Assembly (NCBI RefSeq): GCF_001570565.1
Contig: NZ_BBXE01000023.1
Coordinates: forward strand, 62,001-126,000
Length of the DNA: 64,000 bases
Direction: 5' to 3'
Origin: Herbidospora yilanensis
Lineage (GTDB): Bacteria; Actinomycetota; Actinomycetes; Streptosporangiales; Streptosporangiaceae
Shown in pieces: positions 4,231 to 12,507 of the stretch. The notes under the pieces are model-generated. The model saw only the letters and a program-made list of their open reading frames with translations, was not told the DNA's origin and did no database searches. The translations under genes and the position numbers were made by a program. Numbering within the stretch: the stretch's first letter is position 1; each line of letters opens with the position of its first letter.

Positions 4231-4911
4231 CTAGAGGGCCTGTCTGAGCCACGACTCCACGTCGGCGATGTGGACCGTCGCCCACGAGTGGGCCACCTCG
4301 GGCTGGCGGGCCGCTATCGCGCCGTAGATGGCGTAGTGCTGGTCGAGGGTCTTGCTCGGGGCGTTCGACTGGGTCAGGCCGCGCCAGATGCGGGCCCTCG
4401 TCGTCGGGCCCGACAGGCTCTCGATCAGGGAGCAGAGGACGGCGTTGCCGGAGCCCTCGGCGATGCGCTGGTGGAACTCCAGGTCGTTGGCGACGAGCTG
4501 TTCGACCGTGGGGTTCTCGGGGAGGGAGTCGAGGATCTTGCGGAGTTCCTCGATGCCGGCGTCGGTCATGTTGACGGCGGCCTTGGCGGTGGCGGCGGGT
4601 TCGAGGATGCGGCGGACCTCGAAGAACTGCAGAACGGTGTCGTCGCGGTGGAAGTCGACCACGAACGAGAGGGCGTCGAGGAGGAGGCGGGGTTCGAGGC
4701 TGGTGACGTAGGTGCCGTCGCCCTGGCGCACGTCGAGCACGTTGATCAGCGCGAGCGCGCGCACCGCCTCACGCAGGGAGTTCCGGGAGAGCCCGAGCCG
4801 TTCGGCGAGGTCGGCCTCTTTGGGGAGCCGGGCTCCCGGCGCCAGCTCTCCGTTGAGGATCATGTCCTTGATCCGGTCTATCGCCGTATCGGTTACCGCC
4901 ACGCCTCGCAC
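4231..4911 (-). CDS. GntR-family transcriptional regulator, FadR subfamily (FCD domain)
   Basis: A 226-residue regulator. The N-terminal winged helix (about 8-70) has the GntR signature LPKEADLAERLGLSRNSLREA. It is followed by an all-helical FCD ligand domain (about 80-220) with the conserved HQRIAEGSGN. FCD regulators usually respond to small carboxylates or sugar acids and repress neighbouring operons. The gene lies directly downstream of a metallo-hydrolase gene on the same strand. A perfect palindrome sits nine bases before the start and suggests autoregulation. GTG at 4911 is used as start; GTG at 4902 is possible. It converges with the NlpC/P60 gene with only three bases between stops. 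The ligand is unknown. Confidence 0.85.
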   Translation of the reverse strand: MRGVAVTDTAIDRIKDMILNGELAPGARLPKEADLAERLGLSRNSLREAVRALALINVLDVRQGDGTYVTSLEPRLLLDALSFVVDFHRDDTVLQFFEVRRILEPAATAKAAVNMTDAGIEELRKILDSLPENPTVEQLVANDLEFHQRIAEGSGNAVLCSLIESLSGPTTRARIWRGLTQSNAPSKTLDQHYAIYGAIAARQPEVAHSWATVHIADVESWLRQAL

Positions 4912-4919
4912 CCACCCTC

Positions 4920-4934
4920 AGACATCCGATGTCT
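4920..4934. promoter_or_regulatory. Candidate GntR operator (perfect palindrome)
   Basis: AGACATCCGATGTCT is a perfect 7-1-7 inverted repeat immediately upstream of the gntR start. It overlaps the stop codon of the metallo-hydrolase gene. Position and symmetry fit an autoregulatory FadR-type operator. Confidence 0.65.
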
Positions 4935-5964
4935 AGGAGTGTACGACGAACGTGACCGGATCACCTCCCGTGCGCCTGACCAATCCGCGCACCTCCAGTG
5001 TCCGCAGGTGCGCCGCGGCCTCGCCGGCGGCCATGCCGCGCAGCATCGGGGCCAGGTCCTCCCAGCGCCGGTTCCAGGTCATGAGCGACGCGGCGGTCCA
5101 GATCGTCAGCGGCCGGTCGGCCTCGGCCATCGAGGCCAGCAGCTTGGTCAGCTTCTCCTCGTGGTGCTCGGCGATCTCCCCGGCGCGGGCGGCGACGTCG
5201 GCGAACGTCCACTCGTGGGCGGGAAGGGCCTCCAGCGGGCCGAACGCGGCGATCTTGCCGAGGGAGGCCAGGAACTCACCGAGTGGGTCGATGTCGGTGC
5301 GATCGTAGGGATACATCCCGATATGGGGAGTGATGCCCGGCAGCACGTGGTCACCGGTGAACACCCGATCACCGTCTTCGAGATGGAGACAGATGTGGCC
5401 GGGGGAGTGCCCGGGGGTCCAGACGGTCCGCAGCCGCCGCCCCGGCAGGTCGACGAGCGCGCCGTCGGCCAGGTGCACGTCCGGGATCGCGGGGGGCGTG
5501 GGGGCGTCCATGATCGCGGCGGCGAGCTCCTCGGGCGAGGCGCCCGCCCGGCGCAGCATGTCGGCCTGCATCCGGGGCCGGTCGTCGGCGGCGGCCATGT
5601 CGTGGAACATGCGGACCATCTCGGCGTCGGCCTCGTGCATCGCGATCCACCCGCCGGAGGCCTCCCTGACCTGCCCGGCGAGCCCGGCGTGGTCGGGGTG
5701 GTAGTGCGTGACGACGACGCCGCGCACGTCGGCGAGCGCGATGCCCGCCTGGCCCAGCCCGCTTTCGAGCGCCTGGAACGCCTCGGGGTGGTTCCACCCG
5801 GCGTCGATCAGGACCGGCCCGGTGGGCGACTCGACGGCGTAGACGAGGGTGTAGCCGAGCGGATTGCCCGGTATCGGCACCGGCACACTCCACACCCCGT
5901 CACCGAGATCGGTGACCTTCTGGGCCGAGTAGGCACGCCGCGTCCGCACATCCCGCTCACTCAT
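4933..5964 (-). CDS. MBL-fold metallo-hydrolase with C-terminal winged-helix-like region
   Basis: A 343-residue metallo-beta-lactamase-fold hydrolase. The metal-binding motif HYHPDH (87-92) is followed by GHSPGH, FTGDH and a late AHEW. After the fold, the last 70 residues resemble the winged helix of LACTB2-like hydrolases (LEVRGLVRR). Family members hydrolyse thioesters, lactones or similar bonds; the substrate here is not evident. A KstR2-type palindrome lies just upstream of the start, which hints at a role connected with steroid ring catabolism, for example on CoA thioesters. That is inference from the site alone. The gene precedes gntR in the same direction. Confidence 0.8.
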   Translation of the reverse strand: MSERDVRTRRAYSAQKVTDLGDGVWSVPVPIPGNPLGYTLVYAVESPTGPVLIDAGWNHPEAFQALESGLGQAGIALADVRGVVVTHYHPDHAGLAGQVREASGGWIAMHEADAEMVRMFHDMAAADDRPRMQADMLRRAGASPEELAAAIMDAPTPPAIPDVHLADGALVDLPGRRLRTVWTPGHSPGHICLHLEDGDRVFTGDHVLPGITPHIGMYPYDRTDIDPLGEFLASLGKIAAFGPLEALPAHEWTFADVAARAGEIAEHHEEKLTKLLASMAEADRPLTIWTAASLMTWNRRWEDLAPMLRGMAAGEAAAHLRTLEVRGLVRRTGGDPVTFVVHS

Positions 5965-6267: not shown

Positions 6268-8020
<1,753 letters not shown>

Positions 8021-8092: not shown

Positions 8093-8106
8093 TAGAATCC
8101 GTTCTA
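8093..8106. promoter_or_regulatory. Candidate KstR operator before the dehydrogenase pair
   Basis: TAGAATCCGTTCTA is nearly palindromic and matches the KstR pattern with one change in the core. It ends ten bases before the first dehydrogenase start, so binding would block that promoter. Confidence 0.6.
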
Positions 8107-8116
8107 ACTTCGGTTG

Positions 8117-9136
8117 GTGGATTTCGATCTCGACGAGCCGCAACGGGAGTTGCGCACCCTCGCGGCCGGGCTCCTCGACAAGGAGGCCGACCCGGAGGCC
8201 CACGAGAAGACCGGCGAACCCTACGACGCCCGCCTGTGGGCCACGATGGCCCGCGCGGGGCTGACCGGGGCCTGCCTGCCCGAGGAGTCGGGCGGCGCGG
8301 GGCTCGGGCCGATCGAGATGGCGGTGCTGCTGCGGGAGGTCGGGGCGCACGTCGCGCCCGTGCCGCTGCTGCCCGCGCTGGTCACGGGGCTGACCGTCGG
8401 TCGCCACGGTACGCCGGGCCGGCAGGCCCGGCTCGCTCCCGTCGCGGAGGGCGGCGCGCCCTACACCTACGGCGTCGGCGGGCAGGTCACCGTGGCGAAC
8501 GGTCGGCTCACCGGGCGGGTGACCGGCGTCCCCTACGCCGCGCAGGCCGCGGGTGTCCTGGTGGCGGCGCGCGACGACGTGTACGTGGTCGGTCCGGAGG
8601 CGATGGGCGTACAGAAGACCCCGACCGCGACCGGGGAACCGGCCGGCGTGGTCACCCTCGACGACGCCCCGGGAGAGCTGATCGCGGGGGCGGCCCACGA
8701 GCTCCGCCTGCTGGTACGCGCCGCGGTTGCCGCCACCGCCTCCGGAGTGCTGGCCCAGGCGCTCAAGATCACCACCGACCACGTCAGGACCCGCCGCCAG
8801 TTCGGCCGCGCGCTGGCCGAGTTCCAGGCCGTCACCATGCAGATCGCGGACGTCTACGTCGCCGCCAGGGCCCTCGACGTCGCCGTCTGGTCGGGGGTGT
8901 TCCGGCTCGCGGCGGGGCTCGACGCCGACCGCGACCTGGCCGTGGCGGCGCTGCACACCGCCGACTCCGCGCTGCGGGCCCTCTACACCTGCCAGCACCT
9001 GCACGGCGGCCTCGGCCTCGACGTCACCTATCCGCTGCACCGCTACTTCGCCTGGGGCAAGCACGCCGCGCACGTCCTCGGCGGCGCCGAGGCGCAACTC
9101 GACCTGATCGGGGACCTCGAATGTTCGTCGAACTGA
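8117..9136 (+). CDS. fadE28: Acyl-CoA dehydrogenase small subunit, FadE28-like (ChsE-type)
   Basis: 339 residues from GTG 8117, the same length as mycobacterial FadE28; TTG 8114 is an alternative. It starts with DFDLDEPQ. The C-terminus keeps HLHGGLGLDVTYPLHRYFAW and LGGAEAQLDLIG, typical of this subunit. FadE28 and FadE29 form a heterotetramer that dehydrogenates the three-carbon side chain of the steroid-CoA intermediate, in the step before hydration by ChsH1-ChsH2. The gene overlaps the partner gene by 16 bases, so the subunits are made together. No Shine-Dalgarno is obvious, and the operator lies almost on the start, suggesting a short or absent leader. Confidence 0.82.
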   Translation: MDFDLDEPQRELRTLAAGLLDKEADPEAHEKTGEPYDARLWATMARAGLTGACLPEESGGAGLGPIEMAVLLREVGAHVAPVPLLPALVTGLTVGRHGTPGRQARLAPVAEGGAPYTYGVGGQVTVANGRLTGRVTGVPYAAQAAGVLVAARDDVYVVGPEAMGVQKTPTATGEPAGVVTLDDAPGELIAGAAHELRLLVRAAVAATASGVLAQALKITTDHVRTRRQFGRALAEFQAVTMQIADVYVAARALDVAVWSGVFRLAAGLDADRDLAVAALHTADSALRALYTCQHLHGGLGLDVTYPLHRYFAWGKHAAHVLGGAEAQLDLIGDLECSSN

Positions 9137-10275
9137 CCGACGCGCAACGTGCGCTGCGCGACGAACTGCGCGGCTACTTCGCCACCTGCCTGACCGCCGG
9201 GCAGCGCGCCGACATCGCCGCCGACCCGTTCGGCGCCGCCTACATGGAGCACTGCCGCAGGCTCGGCCGCGACGGCATGCTCGGCATGGGCTGGCCGGAA
9301 GAGTTCGGCGGCCGGGGCTACGGCCCCCTGGAGCAGCAGATCTTCGCCAACGAGATCGCCCGCGCCGAGGTGCCCTACCCGATCATCACGTTGCAGACGG
9401 TCGGCCCCACCCTCATGCAGTACGGCACCCCCGAGCAGAAGGCGTTCTTCCTCCCGCGCATCCTGGCGGGCGAATGCCACTTCGCCATCGGCTACAGCGA
9501 ACCCGGCGCGGGCACCGACCTGGCCTCGCTGACCACCACCGCCGTCCGCGACGGCGACCACTACGTCGTCAACGGCCAGAAGATCTTCACCTCGGGCGCC
9601 CACTTCGCCGACTACATCTGGCTCGCCGCCCGCACCGACCCGAGCGCCGGGAAACACCGCGGCATCACCATGATGATCGTCTCGACCGGGGACCCGGGCT
9701 ACTCCTGGACCCCGATCATCACCATGGACGGCCGCCACCACACCAACAGCACCTACTACAGCGACGTCCGCGTCCCGGCCGACATGGTCGTCGGCGAGGT
9801 CGGCAAGGGCTGGGACCTGATCGTCGACCAGCTCAACCACGAACGCGTGACCCTCGGCCCGGCCGGCAACATCGCCCACACCTACGACCGCTTCAAGGCG
9901 TGGGCGCGGCGCTCGGGCGCCATCGAGGAGCCGGCGGTCAGAAGGGCGCTGGGTTCCGTGTACGCCGCCTTCCGGACCAACGAACTGCTCAACTGGCAGG
10001 TGGCCGCCAACATGGACCTCGGCTGGCTCGGCGCCCCCGACGCCTCGGCCACCAAGATCTACGGCTCCGAACGCATGCAGGACGTCGGCCGCGTCGTCGG
10101 CGAGACCCTGGCCCGCTTCGGCGACCCGGCCGACGAGGAGACCCGCGACCTGATGGAACGTGTCGACCGGGGCGTGAAGGGCGGCCTGGTGCTGACCTTC
10201 GGCGGCGGCGTCAACGAGGTCCAGCGCGAACTCATCGCCATGCTGGGCCTCCAGCTCCCCCGCGCGCCCCGCTGA
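9121..10275 (+). CDS. fadE29: Acyl-CoA dehydrogenase large subunit, FadE29-like (ChsE-type)
   Basis: A 384-residue acyl-CoA dehydrogenase. It shows LTDAQRALRDELRGYF at the start, the FAD/substrate motif FAIGYSEPGAGTDLASL, NGQKIFTSGAH, and the C-terminal FGGGVNEVQRE. These follow mycobacterial FadE29, the partner of FadE28. The overlap with the preceding gene supports one heteromeric enzyme. In mycobacteria chsH2, chsH1 and ltp2 follow; here only damaged traces of the first two are visible downstream. Electrons would pass to ETF, whose genes lie at 40584-42327. Confidence 0.85.
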   Translation: MFVELTDAQRALRDELRGYFATCLTAGQRADIAADPFGAAYMEHCRRLGRDGMLGMGWPEEFGGRGYGPLEQQIFANEIARAEVPYPIITLQTVGPTLMQYGTPEQKAFFLPRILAGECHFAIGYSEPGAGTDLASLTTTAVRDGDHYVVNGQKIFTSGAHFADYIWLAARTDPSAGKHRGITMMIVSTGDPGYSWTPIITMDGRHHTNSTYYSDVRVPADMVVGEVGKGWDLIVDQLNHERVTLGPAGNIAHTYDRFKAWARRSGAIEEPAVRRALGSVYAAFRTNELLNWQVAANMDLGWLGAPDASATKIYGSERMQDVGRVVGETLARFGDPADEETRDLMERVDRGVKGGLVLTFGGGVNEVQRELIAMLGLQLPRAPR

Positions 10276-10326
10276 CACGCGGGATGGAGCGCCTCCAGGC
10301 GCAAAGAAGACATACCGCACCTCGCC

Positions 10327-10560
10327 GTGCCGGAGAGGATGCCGGAATTCCGCCCGCGAGTGGAAAAACCTCAACCCGGTGAATCCCGACCCCAACCGGC
10401 GGATCAACCGGCTAACCCGGACACCCGGCACGTCTGGAAGGGTTCATCTGCGGAGAGTTTCCGGGCCCAGCGGTGCGGCGGGCCCGGAAGCCTGCGACAT
10501 TCCGCCCAGACCCGGTCTGCCCGGCGTGCCGTCCTCCTCCGGCGGAACCGCGCCGGCGAC
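10327..10560 (+). pseudogene. Remnant of a DUF35 zinc-ribbon protein, probably chsH2
   Basis: Reading from GTG 10327 gives a DUF35-like N-terminus: NPDTRHVWKGSS, then FRAQRCGGPGSLRH, resembling the family pattern PDxxxFWxG...LRxQRCxxCGxLRHPP. The second Cys of the first CxxC is Pro. The expected second half of the zinc ribbon, RPDPVCPACR (about 10506-10532), is present but in another frame, so a frameshift separates the halves. The OB-fold and MaoC parts of ChsH2 (about 300 residues in all) are absent. The place between fadE29 and a chsH1 relic fits chsH2 in the mycobacterial igr order. Recognition rests on short motifs. Confidence 0.55.
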
Positions 10561-10693
10561 CGGCGTAGGGGGTTCGTGTCGCGAATCCGCCCGACGACGA
10601 CAGCCCGGGAGCCGTGAGATGCGAACCCTGAACACGTCCAGGCGCGGCACCCCGTTCGCGGCCCCCTGCCGCCCCGCCCCGTGGAGCGGCCCG

Positions 10694-10996
10694 ATGCGAA
10701 TCCCGGAGATCCCGACCGGCACCCGGCTTCCCCGCCTGATCCTGTCGGCCGCCGACGTCCAGCTCACCATGCTCACGACGATGAACCTGGTCGAGAACTA
10801 CGTGACCGCGTGGGCCGGCCCGGACGCCTTCGTCCGCGGCATGAACGTGAAGCTCGGCCGCCCCGCCCACACGGGCGGCACCCTCACCTTCACCGGCGTC
10901 GTGGTGAGCGCCGCGGCCGAGATCGTGACGGTCGAGGTCTGCGCCCGATCGACCGACGGAGTCCACGCGACGGGCACCGTCCGCCTGTCTTGGTGA
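10694..10996 (+). pseudogene. Internally deleted MaoC-like hydratase subunit, ChsH1-type
   Basis: A 100-residue frame begins RIPEIPTGTRLPRL and continues LVENYVTAWAGPDAFVRGMN, VKLGRP, TLTFTGVV and ATGTVRLSW. This is the beginning and end of a ChsH1-like hot-dog protein, normally about 130 residues. Compared with the family, about 30 residues after position 18 are missing. That segment carries the Asp and His of the hydratase motif (DFxxxHxD). The remaining protein cannot be a working enoyl-CoA hydratase by itself. It might persist as a structural fragment, but beside a damaged chsH2 it is more likely a relic. The frame continues upstream, but without protein-like sequence. Confidence 0.6.
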
Positions 10997-11006
10997 GGCG
11001 AAGGCC

Positions 11007-12440
11007 TCAGACCAGCAGCGGCATCGAGAAGAAGACCGCCAGGGCGATCACCAGGCAGATCAGGAAGCCGATCAGCTCCCACGCCCAGTCGTGATGGCGT
11101 TCGGGCTTCGGCTTCGGCGCCCGCCGCCCCGAGTGGGAGCGGGCCGGCAACAGCGGGGGCAGGTCGATCGGCGCCTCGGGCAGTGAGCCCGTCTGCACGG
11201 CCCTGACCAGCGCGCCCTCCGGCTGGTCGATCGTGGTGGAGCCCTGCGGCAGGTCGTCGTCCGCGGCGAGCGGCTTGGCGAACACCAGCCGGTCGGACGG
11301 CAGCAGGTCGGGCATCGTGGTCTCGCCCGGCGTCTCGGGCTCGTCGCGCGAGACGTCCGCCGAGGTGTCGGCCGAGGGGCCGGCGGCCTCGGGGGCAGGG
11401 GCGTCGGAGGGCGGAAGCTCCGTCTCGGCGGGCTTCGGCGCGGGGTGTTCGGTCTCGGTCGTGAAGCCGTCGAACGACGACATCTTCGAGAACGCCGCCA
11501 ACTGGTCTTCGACGACCGCCTCGACCGCTTCCACCGTCTCGGGTGGTGCGGGGGCGGCCTGCGGCGCGGGCATGCTCATCCGCCGCTTCGGCGGGCCGTT
11601 GCCGATGTTCTTCAGGATCGAGCCGCGCAGGCGGGGCATCGGCTCGGTCAGCGCCTCGTGACGGCGGCGGCGTTCGGCCCTCTTCGTCGGGTTGGTCAGG
11701 TCGTCGATCGGGACGACCGTCGTGTTCGTCGCCGGGTCGGTCTCGGTCGCCAGCGGCAGCGGCCACGAGGGCGCGGTGGGCCAGAGTTTACGGACCGGCA
11801 GGGAGGACTTCCGGCGGACCGGCGGGGCCTGGTCGAAAGGGAGCGCGGACTGGTGGAGCCGGCGCAGCACGTCGTGGGGCGGCTCGCGCCAGGGGAGCCG
11901 GGCCAGCACGTCTTCGAGGGGGGCGACCCCGATGGCGTCGTACACCTCTTCGACGTCGCGCGCGATGAACGGCGCGGTGCGGGCGGCGGCGACGGCGGTG
12001 GCGAGGGTCTGGCCGAACCGGTGGCGGGCGCTGGTGGCCAGCTCTTCCGCGGTGTCGGCGGCGACGTCGAGGACCAGGGCGAGTTCGGCGGCGCTGAGCC
12101 CGCAGTGGGCCGACAGCAGCAGGACCTCGCGCTGGTGCGGCCGGATGTCACGGAAGACGCGTTCGATGAGGGCGGTCGCCGGGTCGGCGATCGAGTCGAC
12201 GGCGGGCATCGCGTAGCTGACGTCGCGGCGGTAGATCTCGCGCCGGGCGAGGGAGAAGAGCGCCGCGCGAGGCGGATCCGTCGGCGGGACGCCCGTGAAC
12301 ACGGCCACCAGGGCGTCGGCGGCCGAGGCCGTCTCACCTAGTTGGTCGTGGCAGTAGGCGAACAGCCCGGCGGCGTGACGCTCGTAGAGCTCGGCGATCA
12401 GGTCGCTCCTGGAACGCTGACCCGTGAGCGGTGTTGTCAC
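11007..12440 (-). CDS. Sigma-70-like regulator with C-terminal membrane anchor
   Basis: About 477 residues. The N-terminal 150 look like an ECF-type sigma factor: region 2 (LIAELYERHAAGLFAYC) and a region-4 helix-turn-helix (LSAAELALVLDVAADTAEEL). A middle domain with PFIARDVEEVYDAIG, a long Pro/Glu/Asp-rich linker, a basic patch and one C-terminal transmembrane helix (ELIGFLICLVIALAVFF) follow. Region 2.4 is poorly conserved, so promoter recognition is doubtful. Membrane attachment of a sigma-like protein suggests regulated sequestration or an adaptor role. GTG 12440 has AGGGG eight bases upstream; TTG 12482 in the same frame is an alternative. The gene diverges from the osmoprotectant transporter. 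Confidence 0.65.
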   Translation of the reverse strand: MTTPLTGQRSRSDLIAELYERHAAGLFAYCHDQLGETASAADALVAVFTGVPPTDPPRAALFSLARREIYRRDVSYAMPAVDSIADPATALIERVFRDIRPHQREVLLLSAHCGLSAAELALVLDVAADTAEELATSARHRFGQTLATAVAAARTAPFIARDVEEVYDAIGVAPLEDVLARLPWREPPHDVLRRLHQSALPFDQAPPVRRKSSLPVRKLWPTAPSWPLPLATETDPATNTTVVPIDDLTNPTKRAERRRRHEALTEPMPRLRGSILKNIGNGPPKRRMSMPAPQAAPAPPETVEAVEAVVEDQLAAFSKMSSFDGFTTETEHPAPKPAETELPPSDAPAPEAAGPSADTSADVSRDEPETPGETTMPDLLPSDRLVFAKPLAADDDLPQGSTTIDQPEGALVRAVQTGSLPEAPIDLPPLLPARSHSGRRAPKPKPERHHDWAWELIGFLICLVIALAVFFSMPLLV

Positions 12441-12507
12441 GGCCGGTACCCCTGGTGTTGAAGTGGAGGGATCGTACGTCAATCATGCCGCCACCGAGGC
12501 TGGAGCG

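Follow-up and report, generated by a model that had tools for sequence, protein, structure and literature searches.

The locus described here lies in a window of 64,000 nucleotides from Herbidospora yilanensis (Streptosporangiaceae), namely positions 62,001-126,000 of contig NZ_BBXE01000023.1 in assembly GCF_001570565.1 (G000:C23:62001-126000 in our labelling), a 67-contig draft of 7.85 Mb. Positions without a contig label are those of the window. The locus carries two genes resembling fadE28 and fadE29 (chsE1 and chsE2), which encode an acyl-coenzyme A (acyl-CoA) dehydrogenase of steroid side-chain breakdown, followed by remains of the hydratase genes chsH2 and chsH1. A first-pass annotation of the sequence had described the dehydrogenase genes as intact and the hydratase genes as damaged traces, and had proposed that either the pathway is being lost or a hydratase is encoded elsewhere. 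Its observation of the sequence was confirmed, and its interpretation was partly supported.

Seven Herbidospora genomes were compared, the window's own (G000) and G001 to G006. Loci L035 to L038 (H. galbida, H. sakaeratensis, H. daliensis and H. solisilvae) were equated with G003, G001, G004 and G005, respectively, by their identical ChsH1-derived proteins. The FadE29 of the window is 97-98% identical to that of four named Herbidospora species. Locus L039 of Acrocarpospora phusangensis, one of the Acrocarpospora loci L039 to L043, served as the reference for an intact operon.

Dehydrogenase genes and their predicted control

Both fadE28 (8114-9136, plus strand; start codon TTG at 8114 or GTG at 8117) and fadE29 (9121-10275, plus strand) are open reading frames, as had been annotated. 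The closest solved relative of FadE28 is the acyl-CoA dehydrogenase Tcur3481 (6wy8_A, E 5e-55). When other FadE28 and FadE29 proteins were taken as the reference, leaving out L081 and L090 (odd FadE28 length) and L087 (FadE28 at a contig end), 74 of 78 near-invariant residues of FadE28 and 223 of 227 of FadE29 were found to be retained in Herbidospora. As an adjoining pair of acyl-CoA dehydrogenase subunits with conserved residues, the two proteins belong with ChsE1-ChsE2. The possibility was considered that the short Herbidospora FadE28 is a sign of damage, but this was rejected because FadE28 ranges from 281 to 413 amino acids across 82 loci, apart from an outlier of 741 amino acids in L090.

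The median ratio of nonsynonymous to synonymous substitution (dN/dS, or omega; NG86) in Herbidospora was 0.29 for FadE28 and 0.13 for FadE29. The corresponding values were 0.26 and 0.13 in Acrocarpospora, and 0.14-0.40 and 0.06-0.21 in six further genera. The distance of FadE28 to an Actinomadura outgroup was 1.12 for Herbidospora vs. 1.10 for Acrocarpospora, and that of FadE29 was 0.52 vs. 0.47. The FadE28-FadE29 dehydrogenase is thereby shown to be under ordinary purifying selection.

A TetR repressor gene resembling kstR (7403-8020, minus strand) lies divergently upstream of fadE28, and the top Protein Data Bank (PDB) matches of its product are KstR (5aqc, E 8.8e-34). It is adjoined by a steroid 3-ketoacyl-CoA thiolase gene (6268-7383, minus strand; NF005889, 605.7 bits, cut-off 515), which resembles fadA5. 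The box TGTAACGCGTTCTA at 7392-7405, upstream of the thiolase gene, is an exact match (C23:69392-69405) of TNNAACNNGTTNNA, presumably the KstR motif. This motif had 34 matches in the window's genome vs. 15 for the reversed control. A similar palindrome, TAGAATCCGTTCTA (8093-8106), lies upstream of fadE28 as a predicted operator; it is the same in all seven Herbidospora genomes and has one base altered in A. phusangensis L039. The side-chain genes are probably controlled by KstR. The constraint on FadE28 and FadE29, the retained residues and the invariant operator together indicate that the dehydrogenase has been maintained as a working enzyme would be.

The absence of cyp125 from the site was also borne out; however, the gene is present on the same contig (C23:43926-45125), about 25 kb from the operon and some 17 kb before the window begins. 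The best matches of its product are CYP125 structures, and a KstR-type box stands 50 bases upstream of it (C23:45175). Further KstR-type boxes occur 20-24 kb to the left of the window, at C23:38350 and 42103 (L162); they adjoin a small oxidase-like gene and precede a group of glycosyltransferase-methyltransferase-like genes, both named by eye.

Remains of chsH2, chsH1 and ltp2

The region was aligned to an intact operon of a related actinomycete, as the first-pass annotation had advised. Between the same neighbours as in Herbidospora, A. phusangensis L039 holds fadE28, fadE29, chsH2 (314 amino acids), chsH1 (130 amino acids) and ltp2 (387 amino acids). In the window, the N-terminal part of the DUF35 region of chsH2 was recognized by DNA homology at 10300-10564 (plus strand), where its frame is broken. 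It aligned to nucleotides 446-708 of the A. phusangensis chsH2 with a local score of 129; the maximum of 300 shuffles was 73 and none reached 129, so that the annotated likeness to DUF35 holds at the DNA level. A Pfam scan of the 96-residue frame covering the relic yielded nothing at E<=0.1. In the first CxxC, Pro stands in place of the second Cys, as had been reported, and the frameshift before the second CxxC proved to consist of two one-base insertions. Herbidospora has lost the MaoC half of chsH2.

Codon models, from whose control frames codons with stops were dropped, did not reject omega = 1 for the relic in any of the three frames (gain at most 2.05 log units), and its divergence, 0.03-0.20, is similar in size to the synonymous divergence (dS) of the adjacent genes. 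Functional conservation of the relic was rejected on both grounds. Only 4 of the 13 alignment gaps in the relic and spacer are multiples of three. The chsH2 relic is evolving neutrally.

No ltp2 was found between 10996 and the next gene (11007-12482, minus strand), which is syntenic with L039, where ltp2 intervenes, and a search for Ltp2 at E<=1e-100 found none in the seven Herbidospora genomes. Two parts of a complete igr operon, a chsH2 with MaoC and DUF35 domains and the ltp2 aldolase, are therefore missing. Together with the remaining chsH1 frame, which is devoid of the catalytic dyad, this supports a loss of hydratase and aldolase at the site.

The chsH1-derived frame spans 10619-10996 (plus strand; 125 amino acids), or 100 amino acids from an alternative start at 10694. 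The shorter form matched solved ChsH1 (4w78/4wnb) with an E value of 2.4e-15. Compared with the 130 residues of the intact L039 protein it is short by about 30, as had been noted, and the segment with the catalytic HHD motif is absent. The motif is found in 24 of 24 intact ChsH1 rows of alignment A1 and in none of the five Herbidospora rows; it is also absent from the two remaining Herbidospora species (G006 reads HHG). The catalytic part of chsH1 has been deleted to extents that differ among the species. In the accessible text of PMC11321319, the His/Asp dyad is carried by the ChsH1 subunit. The frame is homologous to solved ChsH1, but it cannot be a canonical hydratase because it has no His/Asp dyad.

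The frame is nevertheless open in all seven Herbidospora genomes, from a conserved ATG (10619 here) preceded by a conserved GGGAG to the stop (10996 here), giving lengths of 125, 136 or 155 amino acids. All four distinct alignment gaps, counted as gaps and not as events, are multiples of three. Codon models (F1X4) rejected omega = 1 with a gain of 13.4 log units for seven species and 11.5 for five. The signal is carried by the C-terminal 82 codons (gain 11.7-12.4, omega about 0.3-0.4), while the N-terminal 43 codons counted from 10619 were indistinguishable from neutral (gain 1.0-1.3), so that translation may start at 10619 or at 10694. When all six frames of the C-terminal part were modelled, dropping codons with stops from the control frames, omega was strongly below 1 in the sense frame alone (about 11 log units) and weakly so in one antisense frame (about 4 log units). 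A neutral simulation gave 0 of 500; with its star tree and single base composition it is a weaker test than the codon models. Pairwise omega of the Herbidospora frame is 0.48-0.65; intact ChsH1 has 0.11 in Acrocarpospora, and the range for four further genera is 0.24-0.40, indicating that the constraint is relaxed against Acrocarpospora, yet present. Weighing against selection on the frame, its variable columns, 26:24:38 by codon phase, are not significant when taken alone (p = 0.14).

AlphaFold modelled the protein with a mean predicted local distance difference test (pLDDT) score of 81.8 (poor for about the first 30 residues, largely high beyond them), as one helix and a small antiparallel sheet in a predicted hot-dog fold. 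The top Foldseek match of the model was ChsH1 (E 3.6e-9, 30% identity). The alignment behind the model holds 24 intact ChsH1 proteins, so the predicted fold is not independent evidence of folding. The frame still looks like a selected protein retained without its catalytic part, and, more tentatively, it may act as a small non-catalytic partner. The first-pass annotation would have abandoned its view of the frame as a damaged trace had relatives carried it as a conserved functional gene. This applies in part: the frame is conserved and selected in 7/7 Herbidospora, although it cannot be a canonical hydratase.

The possibility was considered that the whole operon is dying, hydratase and aldolase having gone first, and that damage has merely yet to reach the dehydrogenase and the ChsH1 frame. 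The neutrality of the chsH2 relic, the uneven deletion of the catalytic part of chsH1 and the raised pairwise omega of its frame would all be expected from such decay. However, omega of fadE28 and fadE29 is unchanged from Acrocarpospora, the operator is invariant, cyp125 is 93-98% identical across the genus, and among the five closest species, in which chsH2 had already been lost, neutrality is rejected for the C-terminal ChsH1 frame. Passive decay therefore appears unlikely and, for the dehydrogenase, the annotated proposal that the pathway is being lost was not supported, in view of the same omega values, retained residues and operator.

Candidate enzymes elsewhere and distribution in the family

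The alternative proposal, a hydratase encoded elsewhere, was pursued by genome searches. With the window's frame as query, no second ChsH1 was found in the window's genome, the next match having an E value of only 0.245. One zf-ChsH2 protein passed the cut-off, on contig C13; ChsH2 was searched in the window's genome only and its MaoC half was not searched alone. A second close copy of ChsH1 or ChsH2 in this genome, or of Ltp2 in any Herbidospora, was rejected by these searches, so that a close homologue is not supported, although an unrelated MaoC hydratase is possible.

When intact ChsH1 was the query, a second match at E<=1e-8 was counted, without being placed, in G000, G002 and G003. Its likely source is a MaoC-type protein on contig C29 (C29:85160-85543; L002:1348-1731), which is the match at E 0.245 mentioned above. 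It has an intact-looking His/Asp-type motif and lies beside a ligase-like frame. Its PDB relatives are HadB and MaoC-like dehydratases (E 1e-16 to 6e-19, best 5.9e-19), and ChsH1 is not among its 18 PDB matches.

The C13 protein belongs to a module (C13:417697-428002; L003, L115 and L116) that encodes a fused 720-residue acyl-CoA dehydrogenase, a FabK-like oxidoreductase, FadD-like ligases, the DUF35 protein and an Ltp-type protein (NF005924, 432 bits, cut-off 419). It also includes a second Ltp-like frame, whose likeness was not profile-scanned, and a KstR-type box at C13:425785 that may be a chance match. The DUF35 protein (E<=1e-20) was found in 7/7 Herbidospora. Of 60 relatives examined, 29 carry FadE29, and 28 of these also have the DUF35 protein; the two occur together in 28 of the 30 genomes having either, so that the DUF35 protein probably acts at a different step of that pathway. 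Thirteen of the 14 non-Herbidospora carriers that were also searched for Ltp2 have it. As a replacement specific to Herbidospora, the C13 module was rejected on account of this wide occurrence.

That the C13 Ltp/DUF35 pair or MaoC-type enzymes elsewhere finish the side chain in place of ChsH1-ChsH2-Ltp2 is made conceivable by the retention of the C13 module, whose DUF35 protein occurs in all seven Herbidospora, by the dyad motif of the C29 protein and by the unplaced second ChsH1 match in the window's genome. However, the C13 protein looks like part of a different step, since its carriers nearly always retain Ltp2; the C29 protein resembles HadB-type dehydratases more closely than ChsH1; and many genomes without the operon have a best ChsH1 match of similar E value (1e-9 to 1e-12). 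Such a replacement is considered rather doubtful.

The distribution of the pathway was examined in 297 genomes of the family Streptosporangiaceae (FadE29 at E<=1e-130, Ltp2 at E<=1e-100, CYP125 at E<=1e-110; for Ltp2 and HsaC the best six to seven candidates per genome were scored). FadE29 was found in 194, Ltp2 in 193 and both in 186. Eight of the 194 FadE29-positive genomes had no Ltp2: the seven Herbidospora and G032, in which fadE29 is frameshifted and split over two frames (locus L023) by decay or an assembly error. CYP125 was present in 208/297 genomes, including 188 of the 194 with FadE29 and all seven Herbidospora.

Among the named loci with a close FadE29, 67/80 have chsH2, chsH1 and ltp2 downstream. 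The other 13, four in Herbidospora, four in Microtetraspora, three in Microbispora and two in Nonomuraea, are without some or all of them; to the right of fadE29, those outside Herbidospora are L051, L059, L062, L063, L072, L078, L091, L101 and L107. The chsH/ltp2 genes are wanting beside fadE29 in three of four Microbispora and in all four Microtetraspora, of which L059 retains the MaoC part of chsH2 and chsH1. In L101 (Nonomuraea) just 812 bases follow fadE29. The idea that these genera repeat the Herbidospora case was rejected, since among the 297 genomes every other FadE29-positive one besides G032 has Ltp2 somewhere; the named Microbispora, Microtetraspora and Nonomuraea species were not themselves searched for a second chsH or ltp2 copy. 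In G179, for example, FadE29 is at C1:724915 and Ltp2 is unlinked at C1:6149623, a second ltp2/chsH1 site lying away from fadE29.

Markers of 9,10-seco ring degradation were also followed. KshA was found in 75/297 genomes; HsaC was found in the same genomes and additionally in G125 and G300, 77 in all. Neither was found in any of the seven Herbidospora. Among the 186 genomes that have both FadE29 and Ltp2, 118 were without KshA and 116 without both markers, so that removing the side chain while leaving the rings intact may be common in the family. In genus g28, taken as Acrocarpospora because the Ltp2 of G104 is identical to that of L039, four of five genomes were without the markers (G163 has both) and all five had Ltp2.

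The lack of KshA, HsaC, Ltp2 and intact ChsH proteins could also mean that the sterol pathway is gone and that the dehydrogenase now serves a non-steroid acyl-CoA. This re-purposing is improbable, as cyp125, the steroid-type thiolase and KstR-like boxes are kept alongside, as are nearly all near-invariant residues of both subunits. An assembly error, conceivable in a 67-contig draft and listed for checking by the first-pass annotation, was refuted by the other six genomes, which show the same lesion with the same boundaries and species-specific differences; being common to 7/7 Herbidospora, it is not specific to one strain either.

At the left of the window, a phage-integrase-family gene (1334-2803; PF00589) is followed by an NlpC/P60 gene (2938-4227), which suggests that an element has integrated to the left of the sterol genes. 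A GntR-like frame (4231-4911, minus strand), named by eye, adjoins an MBL-fold hydrolase gene (4933-5964, minus strand) of the Strvi_7410 family (358.8 bits, below the cut-off of 525).

Interpretation and comparison with known systems

The facts at the level of genes are held with high confidence. The Herbidospora locus is best read as a genus-fixed truncated pathway and not as a dying operon. It would be a still-selected, KstR-controlled side-chain pathway, fixed across Herbidospora and probably ending at 3-oxo-4,17-pregnadiene-20-carboxyl-CoA, a reading to which a probability of slightly over one half (about 0.53) is assigned.

Synteny and alignment show that the ancestor had the usual operon fadE28-fadE29-chsH2-chsH1-ltp2 (chsE1-chsE2-chsH2-chsH1-ltp2), presumably the order of the igr operon of Mycobacterium tuberculosis. 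Subsequently, ltp2 and most of chsH2 were lost and the catalytic part of chsH1 eroded, while the FadE28-FadE29 dehydrogenase, the kstR-like gene, the fadA5-like gene and cyp125 were retained. Sterol intermediates would derepress KstR, and activation by CYP125 would be followed by beta-oxidation of the outer side chain by the thiolase and the C13 module. At the C22 stage, FadE28-FadE29 would produce 3-oxo-4,17-pregnadiene-20-carboxyl-CoA, which would be neither hydrated nor cleaved and would leave as the acid or be used otherwise. Because KshA and HsaC are also missing, the cell's gain would be limited to acyl-CoA units from the outer side chain.

It is tentatively suggested that ChsH1, once ChsH2 and Ltp2 were lost, survived as a hot-dog protein of reduced size that has no catalytic activity but serves a new purpose, such as assisting or stabilizing FadE28-FadE29 as an additional subunit, in a pathway that ends by design at the C22 product. 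The sole hint of such a structural role is in the available part of PMC12502768, on Comamonas testosteroni, where it is noted that the dehydrogenase was suggested to interact to some degree with the hydratase-aldolase complex.

Several points weigh against the truncated pathway. The KstR-like repressor scored 142 bits against NF033703, under the cut-off of 280, and the predicted fadE28 operator fits the presumed KstR motif at 13 of 14 positions, not 14. The putative substrate is assigned by homology, and the small number of candidates scored per genome bears on the Ltp2 and HsaC results. Furthermore, the C29 MaoC-type protein is a candidate alternative hydratase, the aldol step could in principle fall to the C13 Ltp/DUF35 module, and a distant or non-homologous hydratase or aldolase could exist.

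If the truncated pathway is as proposed, sterol breakdown in Herbidospora may stop one step early, and the genus would allow a test of whether ChsE1-ChsE2 is useful by itself when the hydratase-aldolase complex is absent. The genus also presents a hydratase subunit with an eroded catalytic part and a scaffold that is still under selection. Bergstrand et al. (PMC4810484), in the text available, required of a degrader six or more of eight key enzymes, KshA and HsaC among them, so that genomes like those of Herbidospora would not be counted; the main text of that paper has no word beginning Streptosporangi or Nonomuraea. No description of the Herbidospora truncation was found in the open-access literature, although this does not prove that it is novel. 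Each of the parts is of a known kind, and their arrangement appears to be new.

The dehydrogenase pair and the homology of the ChsH1 frame are shared with the igr operon of M. tuberculosis and its C. testosteroni counterpart (PMC12502768), and a steroid-type thiolase gene and a kstR-type regulator gene adjoin the Herbidospora locus. In contrast to igr, chsH2 is broken, ltp2 is absent, chsH1 has no dyad, cyp125 is about 25 kb away, and KshA and HsaC were not found in the genome. The genes of Acrocarpospora L039 to L043 are direct orthologues, and L039 also has the same flanks and operator type; the Acrocarpospora operon is complete, whereas that of Herbidospora is truncated. The ChsH1-derived protein shares its modelled fold and operon position with ChsH1 (MaoC-like hydratase subunit, PDB 4w78/4wnb), but the His/Asp segment and the ChsH2 partner are gone.

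The closest functional comparison is with blocked strains. In the accessible text of PMC12502768, C. testosteroni mutants in chsH1 or the MaoC part of chsH2 accumulate mainly the 17-ene acid, and the C22-steroid strains of Mycolicibacterium neoaurum are blocked at the same side-chain stage, as far as the available portions of PMC10398937 and PMC12409849 go. By analogy with these strains and with ltp2 mutants of C. testosteroni, accumulation of a 17-ene 20-carboxylate is predicted for Herbidospora. Here, however, the loss is natural and genus-wide, and it occurs in strains without ring-opening markers. Herbidospora would thus be a natural, genus-wide counterpart of the laboratory and industrial strains that are blocked at the hydratase or aldolase step to collect C22 steroids.

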